DNA from: Myxococcales bacterium
GTDB lineage: Bacteria; Myxococcota; UBA727; GCA-2721815
DNA length: 60,129 nucleotides
Assembly (NCBI GenBank): GCA_002721815.1
Contig: PBLQ01000047.1
Span: forward strand, 1 to 60,129
Direction of reading: 5' to 3'
In this document: positions 44,326-55,075 of the stretch, in pieces
Position numbering within the stretch: the first letter of the stretch is position 1
Layout of the letters: every line of letters begins with the position of its first letter
Position numbers and translations under genes: made by a program
The notes under the pieces: model-generated
The model's database searches: none
What the model saw: the letters and a program-made list of their open reading frames with translations, nothing else
Told to the model about the DNA's origin: nothing

Positions 44326-44407
44326 GTTCCTTTAAATTTAACTTTTTTGGTGGGGAATGAAAGGCGAGAAGGTTGTTTTTTACCGAATATTGCTGTTTTC
44401 TGGCCAC

Positions 44408-45160
44408 ATGAACTCCCAAATGAACCATTTAAGGCTGATTCAGACGGACGATGGCAGTCAAACGTTACAGGATGATGCATTGGAAGTGACCTACCGTTCC
44501 ACGCAAGGGGCGAAAGGTGAATCGCAGCATGTTTTCCTTGGACAATCGGGGTTACAAGCTCAACAGCGCAGTTGGTCTGTCTTTGAGTTGGGCTTTGGTG
44601 GTGGCCGTAATTGTTGGGAGACCCTCCACGCATTTTTGAACCGGTCTGATGCGACCCATCTTCTTTACGTGTCGGTCGATCATGCCCCCATTTCGATGGA
44701 ACTATTCAGAACGCTTTTGGACAATGAGCCTGTACCGGCAGAAGTATGGCAAATGTTTGAGGGACTGTTGGGCCCAGGGGCGCACCAAGTTCAGCGGTTG
44801 GTTTGGTCCGACGGTCGGGTCATCGAACTGCAATTGTATCAACAAGGGTGGGAGCAAGTACCCTCACATCTTGGCCCCTTTGATGTGGTTTTTCACGACC
44901 CATTTGGGCCACAGGACAACCCTCAAGCTTGGACTGAGGATTGTTTTCGGTGGGAGAAATCACAACTCAAACTCAGCGGCCGCTTGGTCACCTATGGGGC
45001 GGCAGGGCATGTCCGTCGTAACATGGAGCAGGCGGGTTTTATTGTTGGCAAGGCGTCTGGCTTCGGTCGCAAACGTGAAATGACGGTGGCGGTGTTGGAC
45101 GATAAAGAACTGAAGGGGCTCAAGCGGTTTACAAATACAAAAACGGGGCGCCAATCGTGA
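44408..45160 (+). CDS. mnmD: tRNA 5-methylaminomethyl-2-thiouridine methyltransferase (MnmC N-domain, free-standing)
   Basis: SAM-dependent methyltransferase of the DUF752 family that makes the last step of mnm5s2U at the tRNA wobble base. The SAM motif is FELGFGGGRNCWETLHAF; the catalytic-region signature is FDVVFHDPFGPQDNPQAW; the C-terminus has LVTYGAAGHVRRNMEQAGF and GFGRKREM. In enterobacteria this domain is fused to the oxidase encoded by the next gene. The start is uncertain: ATG 44408 gives a normal N-terminus and leaves room for a divergent promoter, while ATG 44357 would add 17 residues. No good ribosome site is visible at either. Confidence 0.85.
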   Translation: MNSQMNHLRLIQTDDGSQTLQDDALEVTYRSTQGAKGESQHVFLGQSGLQAQQRSWSVFELGFGGGRNCWETLHAFLNRSDATHLLYVSVDHAPISMELFRTLLDNEPVPAEVWQMFEGLLGPGAHQVQRLVWSDGRVIELQLYQQGWEQVPSHLGPFDVVFHDPFGPQDNPQAWTEDCFRWEKSQLKLSGRLVTYGAAGHVRRNMEQAGFIVGKASGFGRKREMTVAVLDDKELKGLKRFTNTKTGRQS

Positions 45161-46254
45161 CCGCGGTCCCCCTTGTCATCATCGGTGACGGCTTGGCCGG
45201 TTTGACCACCGCCCAGCATTTACTGGGGTCGGGTGTCCCCGGTGCGGAGATCCTCGTGTTAGCACCCGAAGCGGAAGATGCGAAAGCTTCTGATGCGCCT
45301 TGTTCTATTTGCCATCCGTTTCCAGGACAGTCTTTCCAGCTGAGGCCGCATGTGCTTGATGCCTTTGCCGCTGCCGACCGTTTCCTTTCGCAGTCGCCAC
45401 CTCATTTGCGACGATGCGTCCGTGCACAACGCTGGCTGAGCGAGGAACACGGTCAACGGTCACGCTTGTTAAAATCCTATGACCGAATCCAATCTCAGTT
45501 GTCTGGGGCGGTTCGTGTGGACCAACAATACCCCTCATCCGCTCATCCCAAGAACGTGAGTGAGATTTTTGAAATAGCGCCAGCGTGGGTGGCGAATCTT
45601 AAAGGCATTTGTGATTGGATGCGTGAAGGGCTGAGGCAAAGAGGTATTCAGTTCGAAAGCGGCGTCTTGCAGAGGTTACGGAAAGAGGACGGCAAATGGT
45701 CGGTAAACGACGGGGTCATCGAAGGCGAAAAAGTGATTTTGGCTTTGGGTGTGGGCTTGCCCTCTTTTTTTCCGGCGTTGCCCCATCAAAAGGTTTGGGG
45801 GCATTTGGTTCGAGGTGAGCGCATCAACCCAGAAATGGATATTGTGATTGGAGACGGACATCTGACCAGCATGGACCATTTTTTGTGGGGCGGCGCCTCT
45901 TTTTTGCCGCAACAAGAGAAACCCCATGCGCAACAAGAACAAGAGGCCATTGATGCGTTAAAAACGAAGATGACGGTGCTTGCCGGTAGGGAATATGCCG
46001 TGACCGACAAGTGGGAAGGGGCCCGGTTGGTGATGGGGCACGAAAGACTTCCAGTGGCCGGAGAGATTCCAGGGTTGGATTCTTGTTTTGTGATCGGTGG
46101 CGCGGGCGCCAATGGCTTGTTGTGGTTACCGTATTTGTCCGAACGGCTGACCCAGGAGCTGCAAACGCGTCAGGAAATTATTCCCGAAGCTTTTCAGCCC
46201 AACCGTTATGATTGGGATTGTTGGCAACCCGACCGCCAAAAAATTCGAAGTTAG
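45157..46254 (+). CDS. mnmC: FAD-dependent cmnm5U oxidoreductase (MnmC C-domain, free-standing)
   Basis: DAO-type flavoprotein that removes the carboxymethyl group of cmnm5s2U in tRNA. At 365 residues it has LVIIGDGLAGLTTAQHLLGS as FAD motif, GEKVILALGVGL in the middle and, at the C-terminus, WEGARLVMGHERLPVAGEI, VIGGAGANGLLWLPYLSERL. These resemble the C-terminal half of bifunctional MnmC. GTG start overlapping the methyltransferase stop (GTGA) shows tight coupling. It ends tail-to-tail with the dioxygenase gene, overlapping by 4 bases. Confidence 0.78.
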   Translation: MTAVPLVIIGDGLAGLTTAQHLLGSGVPGAEILVLAPEAEDAKASDAPCSICHPFPGQSFQLRPHVLDAFAAADRFLSQSPPHLRRCVRAQRWLSEEHGQRSRLLKSYDRIQSQLSGAVRVDQQYPSSAHPKNVSEIFEIAPAWVANLKGICDWMREGLRQRGIQFESGVLQRLRKEDGKWSVNDGVIEGEKVILALGVGLPSFFPALPHQKVWGHLVRGERINPEMDIVIGDGHLTSMDHFLWGGASFLPQQEKPHAQQEQEAIDALKTKMTVLAGREYAVTDKWEGARLVMGHERLPVAGEIPGLDSCFVIGGAGANGLLWLPYLSERLTQELQTRQEIIPEAFQPNRYDWDCWQPDRQKIRS

Positions 46255-47188: not shown

Positions 47189-48124
47189 GTGGCAGAATTC
47201 GCAGACAGTTTAGCGCGGTTACCGGTTTTGGGGGTGGGTGTGAGTTTATCCCTTGGGACCCAGCCAGATCCGGTGACCTTAAGCCAGCGTCCCGGAGGCC
47301 CTGATTTTGTTGAGTATGCCGGTGCAGTGGATGTTTCGGTGTATCGCAAGCAAATCGAAACCCTGCAAAAGCATTCAATTCCAATGCTTTACCATCCCAG
47401 TTGTCTAAATTTGTGTGGTCCTTGGCCCAATCCGCCCCATTGGTTGGCACAGGTCAACCAACATGTTCAGCACGTTCAGTCTGCTTGGTTGGCCCAAGAT
47501 GTTTCCGTTTGTTTTACCGGTGATGTGCCTGGTTATTCCATCGATTTGGGGTATTTTGTCCCACCCATTTTGACCCAGGCTTCATTAACCGAAGCCATTG
47601 AACGGGTGGGTGAGGTGCGGGCGGCAGTGGACGCGCCATTGCTTTTGGAGCCAGCGCCGGTCACGTGCCAAGTGGGTGAGATGTCCATTTTCTCTTGGCT
47701 CACGCAGCTGGCGCAGGCCACCGATTGTGGTCTCTTATTAGATGCAGGGCACGTGGTGTCGCATCAGTTGGCCCAAGGTAAATCCCGGACTCAGTTAACC
47801 CATGGGTTAGATGACATCGATTGGGACCGCGTGGTGGAAGTTCATGTGGCTGGGGGGATTATTGAAAGCCATCCCGAGCACAGCGATAGAGCCTACTATC
47901 TGGATGCCCACGACCTTCCTGTTTTGGATGAAACCTGGATGGTCTTTCGGCATATTTTAGAGCATGCCAAACATCTAAAAGCAGTTTGTTTTGAATGCGA
48001 AAGTGCGGATGTCGCCACCATCCTTTGGATGTTGGGCCAAGTTCGAGAACGGGTCATTGCCGGCACGGCCCACCAGGCTTTAAAGGCGCATGTGCTCGAA
48101 AAAAGTCAGGGGACACAGCCATGA
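47189..48124 (+). CDS. DUF692 / MNIO-family multinuclear iron oxidase, divergent
   Basis: A TIM-barrel protein of 311 residues in the family of MbnB, TglH and BufB, which use two or three iron ions to modify Cys residues in ribosomal peptides. Candidate metal ligands match family positions: H69 (YHPS), E154 (LLLEPAP), D185 and H188 (LLLDAGHVV, where most members have LLLDVNN), H219 (VEVHVAG), D239 and H241 (LDAHDLPV) and E269 (CFECES). GTG 47189 has AAAGGA 7 bases upstream. It overlaps the next gene by 4 bases. Assignment is by motif reading; the N-terminal third is weakly conserved. Confidence 0.72.
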   Translation: MAEFADSLARLPVLGVGVSLSLGTQPDPVTLSQRPGGPDFVEYAGAVDVSVYRKQIETLQKHSIPMLYHPSCLNLCGPWPNPPHWLAQVNQHVQHVQSAWLAQDVSVCFTGDVPGYSIDLGYFVPPILTQASLTEAIERVGEVRAAVDAPLLLEPAPVTCQVGEMSIFSWLTQLAQATDCGLLLDAGHVVSHQLAQGKSRTQLTHGLDDIDWDRVVEVHVAGGIIESHPEHSDRAYYLDAHDLPVLDETWMVFRHILEHAKHLKAVCFECESADVATILWMLGQVRERVIAGTAHQALKAHVLEKSQGTQP

Positions 48125-49032
48125 TCGTCCGGCCCTACGACTTTTGGTTGGCTTTGCTTTTTGATGAAGGTTTGCGCACGCGGTTTACAAACGATGTGGA
48201 ACAAACCTTGTCTGAAAGTGGCCTCAGCGATGAGGCGCAAGCTGTTTTCGCTAAAGTGGACCTTCACGGTTTGGCATTGGATGCCAAGGGCAGGGGCCAA
48301 TACCTGATGAGTGCGCTATGTCGCTCTTTTCCATTCACAGTGGCCTGCTTGGGAACGGCCGAGGGCGCAGACCGTGGCATGCGGTTATTTCTGAAAGAGA
48401 TTCCGTCGTTCCACAATTTAAGCGAACGTACTTTGGCATTCGGATCGCATTTGGGAGAACTGATCGGGGAGAATTTGTGGAATGCCAAACCGGTGCTGGT
48501 GGAATTGGTTCGGGCCATTCACGAATTTGAAATGGCCGTTGCGAAGAATACGGCCAGATGCCGAGAGGCCGTCAATGCAGGTCAGCCCATTCCTCGGGTT
48601 GAGAAAGTTTCAAACAGTGCCATCAAACGTCAGAACTTGGTGTTGCCCCCCTTCATGCTGGTGTCACAGCTGCCCGTTTCTTTTGGGGTTCTGGCGCAGG
48701 CGCTTTTCAATCCCGCGCCAGAAACCGTTTGGGACAGGGTTCAGACCAAGCATTCTTTGGATCAGGCCCGCCTGGAAAGTGTGGCCTCGGGCGCCACTTT
48801 ACCGGTGACCGTGGTGGCCAGAGCTCAAGTCTTGGGGATCCAGGGGCAACGCGGCGGCTCGGGGGCCGTGGCACCCCTCATCCACGTGTCCCACCTGAAG
48901 ATGGAACTAAGTGGCCGTAAAGCAAGCCTTTTCCATGCCATCAAGGGCGATCAAAAACTGACAGATTACCCCGCCGAACTTCAAAAGCCTTTGCGCCAGT
49001 TTATCGACGCTGGGTTTGTGGCCCTCAAATAA
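48121..49032 (+). CDS. HvfC/DUF2063-like partner protein of the MNIO enzyme
   Basis: A 303-residue soluble protein, coupled to the MNIO gene by ATGA. The N-terminal half follows the order seen in partner proteins of this enzyme family (BufC/HvfC, also MbnC and TglI by role): a helical start, RSFPFTVACLGTAEGADRGM, a conserved FLKEIPSFHNLSERTLAF and PVLVELVRAIHEFEMAVAK. The C-terminal half ends LQKPLRQFIDAGFVALK, as in the winged-helix-like tails of partners. Partners bring the substrate peptide to the enzyme. The family call is moderate; the functional pairing is inferred from overlap and order. Confidence 0.6.
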   Translation: MIVRPYDFWLALLFDEGLRTRFTNDVEQTLSESGLSDEAQAVFAKVDLHGLALDAKGRGQYLMSALCRSFPFTVACLGTAEGADRGMRLFLKEIPSFHNLSERTLAFGSHLGELIGENLWNAKPVLVELVRAIHEFEMAVAKNTARCREAVNAGQPIPRVEKVSNSAIKRQNLVLPPFMLVSQLPVSFGVLAQALFNPAPETVWDRVQTKHSLDQARLESVASGATLPVTVVARAQVLGIQGQRGGSGAVAPLIHVSHLKMELSGRKASLFHAIKGDQKLTDYPAELQKPLRQFIDAGFVALK

Positions 49033-49076: not shown

Positions 49077-49097
49077 CCTTGTTCGGGTTGAACAAGG
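49077..49097 (+). promoter_or_regulatory. Inverted repeat over the ribosome site of the first Cys-rich gene
   Basis: CCTTGTTC (49077-49084) and GAACAAGG (49090-49097) form a perfect 8-bp stem with a 5-base loop. The 3' arm contains AAGG of the AAGGAG ribosome site (49094-49099). It could be an RNA hairpin that limits translation, or a 21-bp DNA operator for a dimeric regulator. Confidence 0.5.
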
Positions 49098-49105
49098 AGA
49101 TGGCT

Positions 49106-50806
49106 ATGCGTTTTGGTTCCCCTCTAAATCCACTTTTTTTCGTTGTTTGTTGTGCCCTGGTGAGCTTGCCCTCAGCGGCCGCTGAAGATCCCCCGCCGCC
49201 CGATGCGAACAATTCTGAAGAACCTGAGCCCGAAGAAGCCGATTCTGATGGGTCCCATGAGCACGAAGGCGAACCCTGCAATACCAACGATGATTGCCCC
49301 GAGGGTTATTATTGCGGCAGTCATGGGGGACCAAGCATCGTGGACGGCTCAGACAATCCTGGCTCCGAAGACGACATGGACAGTGAGTACAATGGAATCT
49401 GTTTGTGGGACTATTCTTGCGATACCAACGATGATTGTGACGATGGTGAATTCTGCGACATGGAAGAGCGTTTGGAATGTGTCCATCAAGACAACGATGA
49501 GTGGGCTTGTTCATCTGTGCAAGACGGCTGGTGTGCCGACGATGACAGGGTGGATTGTACCGAGGCCAGTGATTGCCATCTCGAAGAAGTCTGCCATGAA
49601 CGTTCTATTGACGACCACGCGCACTGTACCTTCGGACGTAAGGTGCCTTGTACCGAAGACAGTCAATGTGGCGACCGATTGGTTTGCGAGGAAATCCTTT
49701 TGGACCGCTTCTGCTACGGCACTGCCGTCAGCAGCAACTCTAACCCAGACGCCGAACCAGGTACTTTTGAATGCGAAGACCTCGCGGCTGAACGGTGCGT
49801 CATGCGCACTTGTACCCACAGCGATATTTGCCTCGATGATGAAATTTGTGTGCGCATCCATGCCGAACACCATCATCCCTTAGACCACGAGCCCAGTCCA
49901 GAATCTGAAGACGACCCGATGCCGCCTGAAGGTGACGAATGGTGGCTGCCCGAAGAAGGGGTGTGTGCGCCGCCCGCCGCGGGCGACTGTGACAATGACG
50001 ATGAATGCGGTGAATACGAAGAATGTGCAGAAATGGGCAACTTGCCCTGTTTTGACGATGACACACAGTGTGAAGAGGCGACTGTGTCCATTTGTGCTGA
50101 CATCCGAATGGAGTGCGAAGAAGACACGGATTGCCCAGGCTCTTACCATTGCTCTTTCCAGTACACCACCATGGGCCCCTTTGATTATGGCCCCTACATG
50201 GGTGGTCCTGATTCAGGCGGCGGACCGATCGAGGTGGATGCCCCCGAGGAAGACTCTGATGAAACAGATGACTCGGAGGATGACGGTGAACCCCAGGAAC
50301 CACCCAACCCTGACCCAGAGGATGGGCACGATGAAGAGATTGAACAAGACGTGGGGTTATGTTTTCCCGAGTACGGTGATTTAATGTTCTGCGATGACGA
50401 AGCAGAATGCCTTCGGTATGTCGATTGGTCTTACTCGGGCTGGAGCGACCATGACGAAGACGACGCATTACCCCAAGACCAAGAGGACGGCCCAGGGAAC
50501 GGCCCGGGAACAGGTGGTGACGATGATGACGATAATGGGAATGGTGATGACGGTGATGTCGGTCCCGTCGACAGCGATGATGGCGATGATGGCGATGATG
50601 GCGATGAAGACCCCGCAGGGGATAACAATGGGGGCGAGGATGACACGAACCTGAACGTGAACGAGGCACCCGAGCCTGGCTCAGAGGGGTCGCAGCCGCT
50701 CTTTAGTTGTCACAGCACCGGCGGTGAAGGGTTGGTATCATTGTTGGGTTTGGTCACGCTCATGGGCTTGCGCCGACGCCGTGTAATTACGTTTGATATT
50801 AATTAA
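49106..50806 (+). CDS. Secreted Cys-rich acidic protein with MYXO-CTERM-like tag
   Basis: A 566-residue exported protein. ATG 49106 is chosen: AAGGAG is 6 bases upstream, while ATG 49100 touches it. A signal peptide (about 1-24, FFVVCCALVSLPSAAA) is followed by around ten Cys motifs of the form C-x4-DC-x4/5-C (CNTNDDCPEGYYC, CDTNDDCDDGEFC, CTEDSQCGDRLVC), as in Dickkopf/EB-like modules of myxobacteria. An acidic low-complexity region (about 460-525) precedes LFSC, a hydrophobic helix (GLVSLLGLVTLMGL) and RRRR. Seven residues (VITFDIN) follow the Arg cluster. It probably ends up on the cell surface after tag processing. Function unknown. Confidence 0.82.
   Translation: MRFGSPLNPLFFVVCCALVSLPSAAAEDPPPPDANNSEEPEPEEADSDGSHEHEGEPCNTNDDCPEGYYCGSHGGPSIVDGSDNPGSEDDMDSEYNGICLWDYSCDTNDDCDDGEFCDMEERLECVHQDNDEWACSSVQDGWCADDDRVDCTEASDCHLEEVCHERSIDDHAHCTFGRKVPCTEDSQCGDRLVCEEILLDRFCYGTAVSSNSNPDAEPGTFECEDLAAERCVMRTCTHSDICLDDEICVRIHAEHHHPLDHEPSPESEDDPMPPEGDEWWLPEEGVCAPPAAGDCDNDDECGEYEECAEMGNLPCFDDDTQCEEATVSICADIRMECEEDTDCPGSYHCSFQYTTMGPFDYGPYMGGPDSGGGPIEVDAPEEDSDETDDSEDDGEPQEPPNPDPEDGHDEEIEQDVGLCFPEYGDLMFCDDEAECLRYVDWSYSGWSDHDEDDALPQDQEDGPGNGPGTGGDDDDDNGNGDDGDVGPVDSDDGDDGDDGDEDPAGDNNGGEDDTNLNVNEAPEPGSEGSQPLFSCHSTGGEGLVSLLGLVTLMGLRRRRVITFDIN
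50573..50605 (+). repeat. GATGATGGC short tandem repeat
   Basis: About three and a half copies of a 9-base unit coding Asp-Asp-Gly within the acidic region of the first Cys-rich protein. Changes in copy number would stay in frame. Confidence 0.7.
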
Positions 50807-50818
50807 GGGGAGAAAAGA

Positions 50819-53800
50819 ATGAACAGGTTATTAATTATATGTTTAGGGCTGTTGGTGAGTACTCAAGTGTATGCCAACAGCGATGTCCAAATCTGCTATT
50901 TGCACGAAGAGTGTATGGATGGTGACAACAATATGGGCCCCCAAGAAACGCCGGGTTCAGCGGGGTTGGTCTGCATCTTCCCTGGCGAAGTTGGTGTAAA
51001 CCCAGGGATGTGTACCCCATCGTGCGAAGTGGTCCCGGACGTCTGTGATGCCGAGACCGAGGACTGTATCCAATACCCCGATTATGCCCAATGCCACAAA
51101 GATGGCGTTTTGGGGGCGGCGTGTGACAACCACGCCACGGTGCGCATATGTGCGCCCAAAGGTGGTGGCGGTCACGATGGCGACAGTGTGGTTGGTGACA
51201 ATTGTCCAGAGACTTGCGCTACCAATGAGTATTGCGATGCGGGCAGTAATGTCTGTCTGCAGGTCCCTTGCGATTTAATGGCACCACATGACAGTTGCCC
51301 ACCTGGGCTCACCTGTATGGAGGTTCCCGACTCAAGTGGGTTGGCGGGCGCTTTTTGTGTGGCTCAAAATGGCTCTGGCGGTCACGATGGTTCTGCACAT
51401 GGCAATACCGACGGGGTTCCTGATGGCGCGTTAGATGGCGAACTGGACGGCGCTCCCGAAGGCGAATTAGATGGTGCACCCAACGGTGGTTTAGATGGTG
51501 AGTTAGATGGTGCCCCCGAAGGCGATTTGGACGGTGCCCCTGAAGGCGCATTGGATGGCGATTTTGATGGGGCCGGAGATGGCAATGTGGGAGAAGGCCC
51601 AACGGCTTGCCAAGCCCACGACGACTGCCACAATGAACCGGGTGGTAACAGTGTTTGCATCACAGAAGACCCCATTTCAGATGCCGCCAACTTTCACGGC
51701 ATTTGCAGTCCCATGTGCGAGTCCGACGCAAACAGTTGCCCGCCGGGCATGGCGTGCATCGAGCACCCGGATTATATCGGCTGTGCAGTATCAGCCACCG
51801 CGGTGTGTGACGTTGTATTCAAAGTGTGTGCGCCAATCGATGATGGTGGTGGATGTGGCGATTGTGGTCCCACCGGGTTCTGCAACGGCGATCAGGGGTG
51901 TTCAAGCGAACCTTGTGATGACAACATGCCTCGCCAGCCCTGTGCAGATAACCAGTCTGTTGGCGATACCTGCGCGAGTCTCACCGGCGGCAATTTTGCC
52001 AGCACTTGTCAACTCATCAACGCTGAACTGGTTTGCACCAATCAGGGTTCGCCTTGTTTCGGTGGTGACGAGTTTTCCTGCCAAGAGGTTAAAGACAACG
52101 ATGGGCAGATTATGGGACAGTTTTGTTTGCCCAACAATGAACATGGTGGTGGTGATGGCGCGTGTGAAGACCAGACCGCCGATGGCACGCCGGGCTTCGA
52201 GTGGGAGGGCCAATGCTTTAACAGCTGTACCCCACCGTACACCGATAATGGTGAACCCCCGGCCTGTAACGTAGACGAAAATGCTGGCGATGGTTCAGGA
52301 AAGTGTGTGCCCCTCGACTCGCCTGAAGGTGACTATCTGGGCTATTTTTGTATGCCCGGTCAGGGCGGAGATGATTGTGCAGATAACGAGCTACCATACA
52401 ACGACCGTTGTTTAGCATCGTGTGCAGGTGATTTGTCCATGGAGATTGGGGGCATTGATTACTGCAGCTTGCCTGGTGGTGACCTGGGATTGTGTTTCGA
52501 AATCCCTGGGCAAGGTGACTTCTGCCACCCCATTTTTGATTGTGACCCTGTTTGCCAGCCTCACGAAATTTGTGGCCCCGACGCAACGGGGGAGAATGGG
52601 GAATGTTTAACCGTTTGTGCAGGGAATGAAGACTGCGACTCGGATTCGGTTTGTTTGGACTATAGTGAACCTTGTGACAGTGCTGACCCCAATTGTACCG
52701 GTGAACCAGATTTTCGCGCTTGCGGTGCGGACAACGGTGGGCAGAGTTGTGAACCAGGGGATACCTATGATTCCGAATGCGAAGACTGTACATGCACCGA
52801 TGCTGGCACTTGGGACTGTGAAAATCTGTGTGGGGACAGTGACGCATGTGCACTGGCGGAGAGTATTGGAGGGTGCCCAGAGTGCGCCGATGGGGATATG
52901 ACCTGTACTTTCGATATCCACTCTGAAACCGCCATGTCCTGTGGGGACTGTCAGGCGCGATCTGCCCTCTACGAACGATTATGCTATCTCGGGGTTGATG
53001 CTTCCACTTCAGAAATTGAAGAGGGCACCCTATGCGAGTCGCCCCAAGGCTGTGACCATGACGAGACCAGCTATGAACATGGTGACGAATGGTACGATGC
53101 GCAGGGCTGTTCCATTTTTACCTGTGACAATGGCCAAGTCATTCAAGCAATAATGGATTGCTCCATCGACCATACCTGTGAAGAAACCATGAATGGGTTG
53201 GAGTGCATCTGTGTATATGGGGCTAAAAGAACAGAACCCGATGGTTGTACCGAGTGCGAATGTATCGCGGGCATTGCCAACAACATGTGGCTCTGCGACT
53301 CAAGTGCTTGCTCTGGCGGGGGTGATGATTGCTGCACCGAACAAGAAGAACAAATGTGCCAAGACCTCGAAGCCCAATTGACCCTCTGTGATGATATTTT
53401 TATTGGGCCAGACCAGCAAAATGAGATCGATCAGTGCAAACAAGCGGCAGAACAAACGCTGTCTTGCGACTGTGATCGGGACTGCCACGGGAATGATGGC
53501 AGTTGCACTCACGGCGAGGGGGATGACAACCAAACTTATCTGGATGGTGAAAAATGGTACGATGTTGCATCTTGCCAAATCTACGAATGTGATGCAGGCC
53601 AAGTGATGACCATCCAGATGGACTGTTTGCCAGACCACACTTGCCAGGAAAATCTCGCTGGTGACAACTTGGAATGCGTTTGTAATCTGGGCGCCAAAAA
53701 GACAGAAGCGGATAACTGCACGGAATGCGAATGCATTGCAGGTGTCGCCAGTAACATGTGGCAGTGTGACGACAGCGCATGTTCAAATGATACCGATTGT

Positions 53801-55075
53801 ATCTATGACGGCGAAACCTACCAAGAAGGCGAAAGCTGGACTGTGGAATGTCACACCTGCACCTGTACCAATGGCGTTGTCTCCGGTTGTGACAACACCC
53901 AGCAGATGTGCGAGCAAGACTGCGACGGCGATTACGACGGTGACGTGTTGGATTGTAACAACGAGTGTGGCGGCACCGCCACCTACGACAACTGTGGACA
54001 CTGCACCGGTGGTAATTCTGGCGCGGTCGCCTGTGTTGCAGACTGTGCCGGTGACTGGGGTGGTACCGCGTTCGTGGACAGTTGCGACAACTGTGTGGCT
54101 ACCGTGGAAGAGGCTTGTGTTGCAGACTGTGCCGGTGACTGGGGTGGTACCGCGTTCATGGACAATTGCGGCTACTGTGTGGCTACCGCGGAAGAGGCTT
54201 GTGTGGCGGACTGCAACGGTGATTGGGGCGGATCGGCCACCATCGATAACTGTGGTAACTGCACTGGTGGCAATTCTGGCGCGGTCGCCTGCGTTGCCGA
54301 TTGCAACGGGGACTTCGGTGGCAGCGCTGTAGAAGATGATTGCGGCAACTGTGTGGCTACCGCGGAAGAGGCTTGTGTGGTGGATGACACCGCGGATGCA
54401 GGTTCATCGGGCGGGGATGCTGACGGTGCAACTGATGGCACGACCACCGGCGTGGTAGATGGCAATACCGATGGCAATACCGATGGTGATGCCGATGGTT
54501 CAAATGAAGCCGACGCAGGTTCTACGGATGGTACGGTCGACGGTTCATCTGATGGCAGTGGAGAAGGGTCTCAAGAGCTGGACGCAGGAGCCTCTGACGG
54601 AAATTCCGATGGTGATGCCGATGGTGATGCCGATGGGGATGCTGATGGTAATACCGATGGTGATACCGATGGTGATACCGATGGTGATACCGACGGCTCA
54701 GATGAAACCGATGCGGGCTCCACGGACGGCTCCGCCGATGGCAGTGGAGAGGGGACCGGTGACGGTTCGGATGAAACAGACGCTGGTGCAACAGACGGTT
54801 CCTCTGAAGGCAGTGCTGATGGAGCTCAAGAACTGGACGCAGGTTCCGCTGACGGAGCCTCCGATGGCGATACTGACGGCGATACCGATGGGGATACCGA
54901 TGGGGATACCGATGGGGATACCGATGGGGATGATGTCCCGGGTGACCCACCTGCACCTGAACCCGCGCCCATCACGCTCTTTAGTTGCGCCAGTACCGAC
55001 GCGGCACCGGTTAGTTTGTGGGGCCTTCTGGCTGGCTTGTTCCTCTGGCGACGTCGCCGTCAGCGGCTACGCTAA
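50819..55075 (+). CDS. Giant secreted Cys-rich repeat protein with MYXO-CTERM-like tag
   Basis: A 1418-residue exported protein 12 bases after the previous gene, with GGGGAG upstream, so in the same operon. Order: signal peptide (about 1-19); Cys-rich modules (25-190); a Gly/Asp repeat linker (195-260, LDGELDGAPEG type); more Cys modules (264-640); VWC/pacifastin-like blocks CECIAGIANNMWLCD (about 813-827) and CECIAGVASNMWQCD (about 970-984) inside two long duplicated segments; four DCxGDWGG repeats (about 1075-1185); a DGDTDG acidic tract (1196-1372); then LFSC (1387-1390), a helix and RRRR. DxDxDG runs could bind calcium. A surface or matrix role is likely but unproven. Confidence 0.82.
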   Translation: MNRLLIICLGLLVSTQVYANSDVQICYLHEECMDGDNNMGPQETPGSAGLVCIFPGEVGVNPGMCTPSCEVVPDVCDAETEDCIQYPDYAQCHKDGVLGAACDNHATVRICAPKGGGGHDGDSVVGDNCPETCATNEYCDAGSNVCLQVPCDLMAPHDSCPPGLTCMEVPDSSGLAGAFCVAQNGSGGHDGSAHGNTDGVPDGALDGELDGAPEGELDGAPNGGLDGELDGAPEGDLDGAPEGALDGDFDGAGDGNVGEGPTACQAHDDCHNEPGGNSVCITEDPISDAANFHGICSPMCESDANSCPPGMACIEHPDYIGCAVSATAVCDVVFKVCAPIDDGGGCGDCGPTGFCNGDQGCSSEPCDDNMPRQPCADNQSVGDTCASLTGGNFASTCQLINAELVCTNQGSPCFGGDEFSCQEVKDNDGQIMGQFCLPNNEHGGGDGACEDQTADGTPGFEWEGQCFNSCTPPYTDNGEPPACNVDENAGDGSGKCVPLDSPEGDYLGYFCMPGQGGDDCADNELPYNDRCLASCAGDLSMEIGGIDYCSLPGGDLGLCFEIPGQGDFCHPIFDCDPVCQPHEICGPDATGENGECLTVCAGNEDCDSDSVCLDYSEPCDSADPNCTGEPDFRACGADNGGQSCEPGDTYDSECEDCTCTDAGTWDCENLCGDSDACALAESIGGCPECADGDMTCTFDIHSETAMSCGDCQARSALYERLCYLGVDASTSEIEEGTLCESPQGCDHDETSYEHGDEWYDAQGCSIFTCDNGQVIQAIMDCSIDHTCEETMNGLECICVYGAKRTEPDGCTECECIAGIANNMWLCDSSACSGGGDDCCTEQEEQMCQDLEAQLTLCDDIFIGPDQQNEIDQCKQAAEQTLSCDCDRDCHGNDGSCTHGEGDDNQTYLDGEKWYDVASCQIYECDAGQVMTIQMDCLPDHTCQENLAGDNLECVCNLGAKKTEADNCTECECIAGVASNMWQCDDSACSNDTDCIYDGETYQEGESWTVECHTCTCTNGVVSGCDNTQQMCEQDCDGDYDGDVLDCNNECGGTATYDNCGHCTGGNSGAVACVADCAGDWGGTAFVDSCDNCVATVEEACVADCAGDWGGTAFMDNCGYCVATAEEACVADCNGDWGGSATIDNCGNCTGGNSGAVACVADCNGDFGGSAVEDDCGNCVATAEEACVVDDTADAGSSGGDADGATDGTTTGVVDGNTDGNTDGDADGSNEADAGSTDGTVDGSSDGSGEGSQELDAGASDGNSDGDADGDADGDADGNTDGDTDGDTDGDTDGSDETDAGSTDGSADGSGEGTGDGSDETDAGATDGSSEGSADGAQELDAGSADGASDGDTDGDTDGDTDGDTDGDTDGDDVPGDPPAPEPAPITLFSCASTDAAPVSLWGLLAGLFLWRRRRQRLR
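51400..51590 (+). repeat. LDGELDGAPEG-coding repeats
   Basis: Imperfect repeats of about 24-33 bases (core GGCGAATTAGATGGTGC and variants) encoding Leu-Asp-Gly-Glu and Ala-Pro-Glu-Gly units, forming a flexible linker between the first and second Cys-rich regions. Confidence 0.65.
54032..54380 (+). repeat. 84-90-base tandem repeats coding DCxGDWGG modules
   Basis: Near-identical units begin at 54032, 54116 and 54200 (84-base period), and a fourth begins near 54290 with a longer linker. Each encodes a 28-30-residue module VADC-x-GDWGG-x5-D-x-CG-x-C. The first two copies are almost identical in DNA, so duplication was recent. Confidence 0.8.
54608..54691 (+). repeat. 12-base tandem repeat, block A
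   Basis: Seven units of the type GATGGTGATRCC encoding Asp-Gly-Asp-(Ala/Thr). The unit is a multiple of three, so slippage alters length without a frameshift. Confidence 0.8.
54869..54928 (+). repeat. 12-base tandem repeat, block B
   Basis: Five units; the last four are exact copies of GATACCGATGGG. They encode Asp-Thr-Asp-Gly just before the sorting tag. Perfect identity suggests recent expansion. Confidence 0.85.

Follow-up and report, generated by a model that had tools for sequence, protein, structure and literature searches.

A pair of adjacent genes in a myxobacterial genome encodes an enzyme and a partner protein that belong to a discrete and widespread subfamily of MNIO (DUF692) proteins, which is set apart by a PME-type 2-like partner, by two invariant switches of metal ligands and by the lack of a linked precursor gene, and which has apparently not been described so far. 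The pair lies within a window (the whole stretch of DNA that was analysed) of 60,129 nucleotides, contig PBLQ01000047.1 of the Myxococcales bacterium assembly GCA_002721815.1.

The gene pair

The two genes and the features that connect them are as follows:

47189-48124, forward strand: MNIO (DUF692) enzyme of the D104/H188 subfamily, 311 aa, GTG start (PF05114 match, AlphaFold2, Foldseek)
48121-49032, forward strand: PME-type 2-like partner, 303 aa (AlphaFold2, pLDDT 92.5; Foldseek match to 3dee, probability 0.98)
48121-48124, forward strand: ATGA start/stop overlap of enzyme and partner genes, indicating translational coupling (sequence)
48133-48270, forward strand: N-terminal helical segment of the partner, with a resemblance to LigA/NHLP (Os17) leaders (NF038399)

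It had been predicted that an MNIO is coupled here to a partner through an ATGA overlap and both parts of this hold, as the enzyme matches PF05114 and bases 48121-48124 are common to the two ORFs. Exactly this -4 spacing with ATGA is found in 33 of the 52 recognisable split pairs among 80 related loci, and at 25 of the 80 enzyme and partner are encoded by one ORF.

Family and fold of the enzyme

The PF05114 (DUF692) profile matches the enzyme with E = 4.5e-26 and 92.1 bits against a cut-off of 25, as expected for a member of the family. The equivalog cut-offs of the named NCBIfam models are all missed, with 74.7 of 310 bits for BufB, 66 of 400 for ApyH, 52.7 of 360 for HvfB and 18.1 of 600 for ChrH, and by these cut-offs the enzyme lies outside the named MNIO subfamilies. 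The nearest solved structures by sequence are 3bww and TglH (phmmer, E about 2e-4). The AlphaFold2 model is a TIM barrel with a mean pLDDT of 92.8, for which the best PDB matches in Foldseek are TglH (1.2e-14), 3bww (1.4e-12) and MbnB (2.4e-12), with endonuclease IV (Endo IV) and sugar epimerases ranking next after the MNIOs. The metal-ligand positions of the model, H69, D104, E154, D185/H188, H219, D239/H241 and E269, are found at or just past the C-terminal ends of successive strands; the five that had been proposed to meet in one site (H69, E154, D185, H219 and E269) lie at the ends of strands 3, 5, 6, 7 and 8. The genome contains one further MNIO, on contig 26.

Two switched metal ligands

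The metal ligands of TglH are H71, H107, E151, D184, N187, H216, D229, H231 and E258 (PMC10880893). The equivalent positions of the enzyme, with their conservation in 81 subfamily sequences, are:

47393-47395, forward strand: H69, equivalent to TglH H71, site-1 ligand at the end of strand 3; His in 81/81
47498-47500, forward strand: D104, at the position of TglH H107 (the His of the SDH motif), site 1, end of strand 4; Asp in 81/81, His in 49/49 canonical controls
47648-47650, forward strand: E154, equivalent to TglH E151, bridging ligand; kept in 81/81
47741-47743, forward strand: D185, equivalent to TglH D184, bridging ligand; kept in 81/81
47750-47752, forward strand: H188, at the position of TglH N187, site-3 ligand; His in 81/81, Asn in 49/49 canonical controls
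47843-47845, forward strand: H219, equivalent to TglH H216, iron ligand; kept in 81/81
47903-47911, forward strand: D239 and H241, equivalent to TglH D229 and H231, site-3 ligands; kept in 81/81
47993-47995, forward strand: E269, equivalent to TglH E258, iron ligand; kept in 80/81, with one gap

Seven of the nine ligands are kept and two are switched, a site-1 His to Asp (D104) and the site-3 Asn to His (H188), so that the nine columns read H, D, E, D, H, H, D, H, E in all 81 sequences with the single exception of the gap. These sequences span Myxococcota, Gammaproteobacteria, Acidobacteria and Planctomycetes and were gathered with scan patterns that leave positions 104 and 188 free. For comparison, 20 further MNIOs were taken from Myxococcota and 30 from a sample of Gammaproteobacteria, and His and Asn, the canonical residues, are present in 49 of these 50; the exception (locus L026) has both switches and joins the subfamily on a long branch. 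The enzyme does not have the full canonical set of ligands, which comprises a pair of His at site 1 and Asn-Asp-His at site 3; since Pfam does not define the family by these ligands, membership of the MNIO superfamily stands and membership of a canonical subfamily does not.

The original prediction had placed a departure from the family at the metal-ligand block LLLDAGHVV, and indeed these are residues 182-190 of the enzyme, with H188 in place of Asn. The change at D104 is a second one that it had not recorded. An alignment in which D104 stands opposite the Asp of SDH, with the site-1 His lost altogether, is ruled out by better alignments: a gap-free alignment from the invariant W100, the alignment with 3bww and an alignment of 57 sequences all set D104 opposite the ligand His, and the change is therefore a swap and not a loss. 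The switches are described in no paper found in a literature search, most subscription journals being outside its reach.

Other residues vary by clade. Within residues 105-109, just after D104, Cys-Phe is found in the clade that unites the window enzyme with Gammaproteobacteria and Trp-His in the other two clades, whilst C77 is likewise specific to the first clade; these residues could be extra metal or substrate contacts.

The partner protein

The partner had been called HvfC-like, which is valid at the level of fold alone, as a Pfam scan of the window partner gave no family match and PF09836 (DUF2063) was among those without one; PF09836 is also absent from the 25 families listed for 45 partner homologues. 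The AlphaFold2 model has a helical domain (residues 1-152) followed by a winged-helix/RRE-like domain (about 165-300), and its sole credible PDB match in Foldseek is the DUF2063+RRE protein NGO1945 (3dee), for which the E-value of 0.03 is above 0.001 and the global superposition is poor (TM 0.34/0.47, rmsd 8.0). NGO1945 is the DUF2063+RRE structure against which the PME-type 2 proteins were recognised (PMC12452194). The partner fits that category (PMC12452194), being encoded after an MNIO and having a DUF2063-like and RRE-like fold without the DUF2063 signature, and for want of that signature it does not fall in PME-type 1 with HvfC and BufC. The leader-type model NF038399 matches 32 of the 45 partner homologues (best E 1.9e-7), the window partner weakly (E 0.11); the model for ApyI, the RRE partner of ApyH, matches seven of the 45 (best 2.1e-4) and is likewise weak for the window partner.

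Distinctness and distribution

That the enzyme represents a distinct subfamily, as had been proposed, is borne out by a profile of its own, which scores 273-395 bits on members and 128 bits or less on every other MNIO. In the tree the 40 sampled members fall on one side of a starred, highly supported branch and only L026 is added to them. Relatives are found in Myxococcota, Gammaproteobacteria, Acidobacteria, Planctomycetes and others. Of 195 Myxococcota genomes searched with the profile, 81 contain one subfamily gene apiece, and in one large myxobacterial family (f13) most of the members sampled have it. Genomes of Myxococcus are among those with subfamily members (L097, L100, L101, L118). 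No true ApyH above the cut-off was present in 369 genomes for a comparison of ligands; 30 other MNIOs from these genomes were used as controls. Myxobacterial-type loci also occur in records titled Klebsiella pneumoniae (MAG) (L085) and Comamonas sp. KCTC 72670 (L122), and the labels of these records are therefore probably wrong.

Gene neighbourhoods

No small precursor gene had been seen beside the pair, and a survey of the window and the 80 related loci extends this: none of the small ORFs next to the pair is conserved across clades, and those that recur are confined to yajC, neighbours shared at family level and artefacts from antisense or overlapping frames. The adjacent conserved precursor that marks a RiPP gene cluster is thus lacking. 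Such a gene would have been noticed, since a precursor-like ORF of 116 aa was seen in front of the canonical MNIO that this genome also encodes. This second cluster (L044:7822-9754, G000:C26) encodes an MNIO with SDHL and DLHN motifs; the 116-aa ORF before it, a possible precursor, has a lysine-rich C-terminus ending IDWCGRCW, and a 223-aa ORF that overlaps the end of the MNIO is a possible partner.

The neighbourhoods vary by clade and are mostly non-biosynthetic. The pair sits between queA-tgt and yajC-secD in nine gammaproteobacterial loci, has yajC-secD downstream in two further ones where the upstream side is truncated, and precedes queA-tgt-yajC in one more (L064). In Myxococcaceae an enzyme-partner fusion is found beside udk, and prs, der, nrdR-rpiB or prfB are near the pair in other loci; names of neighbours besides queA, tgt, yajC and secD rest on a reading of their sequences. 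A tryptophan dioxygenase gene lies divergently upstream of the pair in the window, with MnmC2/MnmC1-like genes beyond it. The latter (44357-46254) encode a tRNA methyltransferase of the MnmC2 type and an MnmC1-like FAD oxidoreductase separately, in two overlapping genes and not as one fused protein.

The queA-tgt context prompted the idea that the pair replaces QueG, which is ruled out: QueG is present in 32 of 32 genomes tested, whether or not they have the pair, which is therefore no stand-in for queuosine reductase. No paper joining DUF692 with queuosine was found in the literature search, with the same limited reach into subscription journals.

A co-occurring NHLP/Os17 precursor was also looked for and no consistent one was found. 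At least one match of this type, L135, sits where G025 encodes its partner and is that very protein, and several more fall in reading frames as long as a partner. One myxobacterial genome (L129, G097) does contain an Os17/NHLP-type RiPP precursor candidate above the family cut-off (43 bits). At one locus only (L065:8014-8223) a 69-aa Cys- and Met-rich peptide is encoded some 200 bases past the partner, and the gene that comes after it is P-type ATPase-like and has CPMHPE motifs.

Downstream of the pair in the window (49079-55075) are genes for two large acidic, Cys-rich and apparently secreted proteins of 575 and 1418 aa, which both end in FSC, a hydrophobic stretch and RRRR, an arrangement reminiscent of MYXO-CTERM sorting signals; repeats of the DGDTDGD type are present in the larger one.

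Comparison with known systems

The closest fold match is TglH-TglI of 3-thiaglutamate biosynthesis, with seven of nine ligands identical; the differences are the Asp and His at the positions of H107 and N187 and the absence of a TglA-like precursor. ApyH-ApyI also combines an MNIO with an RRE partner, ApyH giving the best score to a subfamily member (1.2e-28) among the NCBIfam models and ApyI being the only named MNIO partner model that matches. However, the window enzyme is far under the ApyH cut-off, and the aminopyruvatide pathway genes (precursor, P450, radical SAM and methyltransferase) are missing at the pair.

In HvfB-HvfC and BufB-BufC an enzyme gene is likewise followed by one for a partner with a DUF2063+RRE-like fold. 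An HvfBC fusion has been made in the laboratory to stabilise the complex (PMC13419390), and fusions of this kind occur naturally in the subfamily. In contrast to these systems, the subfamily has no Cys-rich precursor with a Sec signal and no DoxX gene, its window partner has no DUF2063 signature and its enzyme has switched ligands. MbnB-MbnC shares the MNIO fold and the pairing of enzyme and partner, but site 1 of MbnB is two His holding the ferric iron that binds substrate, where the present enzyme has His and Asp.

Endo IV is a TIM barrel as well, although its fold is less similar to that of the enzyme and it has no RRE-type partner. D-x-x-H is a metal motif of Endo IV and the DxxH block of the enzyme equals it, whilst Endo IV keeps His at the position of D104.

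Proposed function and alternatives

We lean towards the view that the pair is an oxygen-activating multi-iron complex of enzyme and partner which has a remodelled metal site and acts in trans on a peptide or protein. As no precursor gene is repeatedly found next to the pair, the substrate is most likely encoded at another place in the genome, and the substrate-recognition fold retained by the partner makes a peptide or protein the most likely candidate, with tRNA or a nucleotide as a possible alternative. The original prediction of another kind of substrate is plausible and is not supported as it was stated, as none of the analyses points to a substrate.

The TIM-barrel subunit would carry the iron cluster and perform the oxidation, and the partner would present the substrate via its RRE-like winged-helix domain, the split pairs presumably forming a heterodimeric complex. 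HvfB attains its active, mixed-valent state only with HvfC (PMC13419390), and by analogy the partner may help to set the active oxidation state of the iron. In MbnBC the site-1 ferric iron, held by two His, binds the Cys thiolate of the substrate, and O2 probably binds to the ferrous iron at site 2 (PMC13419390). With one His and one Asp replacing the two His, site 1 would turn harder and less suited to a thiolate, which may move the chemistry away from cysteine. Cysteine is not obligatory for MNIOs, as ApyHI (PMC10635010) and PbsCD (PMC12257519) act on other residues and Asp, Phe and homocitrulline are among the known targets (PMC10635010, PMC12257519, PMC13174530). Site 3, with His replacing Asn, would become a stronger metal site resembling that of Endo IV. 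The role of the third iron site is debated, since mutation of its ligands abolishes HvfBC activity even though this site appears to hold no metal in the active state (PMC13419390). A bolder form of the proposal, which we hold only tentatively and consider rather doubtful, is a conserved MNIO branch outside natural-product biosynthesis for which the oxidation of a cellular protein (or tRNA) is a core function, with the His/Asp site 1 and His-rich site 3 favouring a permanently trinuclear cluster and non-cysteine chemistry.

Points against the favoured view are that no substrate was found, that the partner has a PDB fold match above E = 0.001 with a poor superposition, and that the housekeeping-like contexts (tgt, yajC, udk, prs) would fit a non-peptide substrate as well. 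This could be tRNA or a nucleotide in modified form, for example, with the winged-helix domain of the partner binding nucleic acid. The queA-tgt/yajC-secD loci, comprising the nine complete and two partial ones and the L064 variant, are in keeping with this, as are the MnmC2/MnmC1-like genes near the pair in the window and the fusion beside udk; but these contexts differ by clade, the partner resembles RiPP partner proteins and, with QueG in all 32 genomes, no queuosine reductase is missing, so that we consider a non-peptide substrate unlikely.

A RiPP pathway with a small precursor in trans and a secreted natural product appears quite unlikely. Known MNIO-partner pairs with identified substrates do work on RiPP precursors and some bufferin precursors are encoded away from the MNIO genes (PMC12452194), but neither a peptidase nor a transporter is a recurrent neighbour of the pair across clades, an NHLP-type precursor does not accompany it with any consistency, and the single-copy pair is carried by most sampled f13 members, unlike patchy natural-product clusters.

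It is improbable that the enzyme has left oxidative chemistry for that of a Zn/Mn hydrolase or isomerase nearer to Endo IV and the sugar isomerases: the DxxH block, a more oxygen-rich site 1 and the rank of Endo IV folds just behind the MNIOs would suit such a change, but potential ligands occupy nine of nine positions, the partner is still of PME type and in sequence-profile comparisons the MNIOs come out ahead of every other family. That the Cys-rich proteins downstream (49079-50806 and 50819-55075) are the substrates is very improbable. They do share the strand of the pair and contain many Cys, the gene for the first begins about 50-75 bases past the partner stop, and large MNIO substrates have been proposed (PMC12452194), but they are not conserved: the closest relatives, L045 and L046, have different Cys-poor genes there and L047 has an antisense gene. 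Similar Cys-rich genes are also found elsewhere in this genome.

Significance

To our knowledge, MNIOs with identified substrates modify the precursors of peptide natural products. The single-copy occurrence of the present subfamily in myxobacteria without a linked precursor suggests instead a cellular role. The subfamily offers a ligand swap made by nature at precisely sites 1 and 3, and natural fusions of enzyme and partner to go with it.
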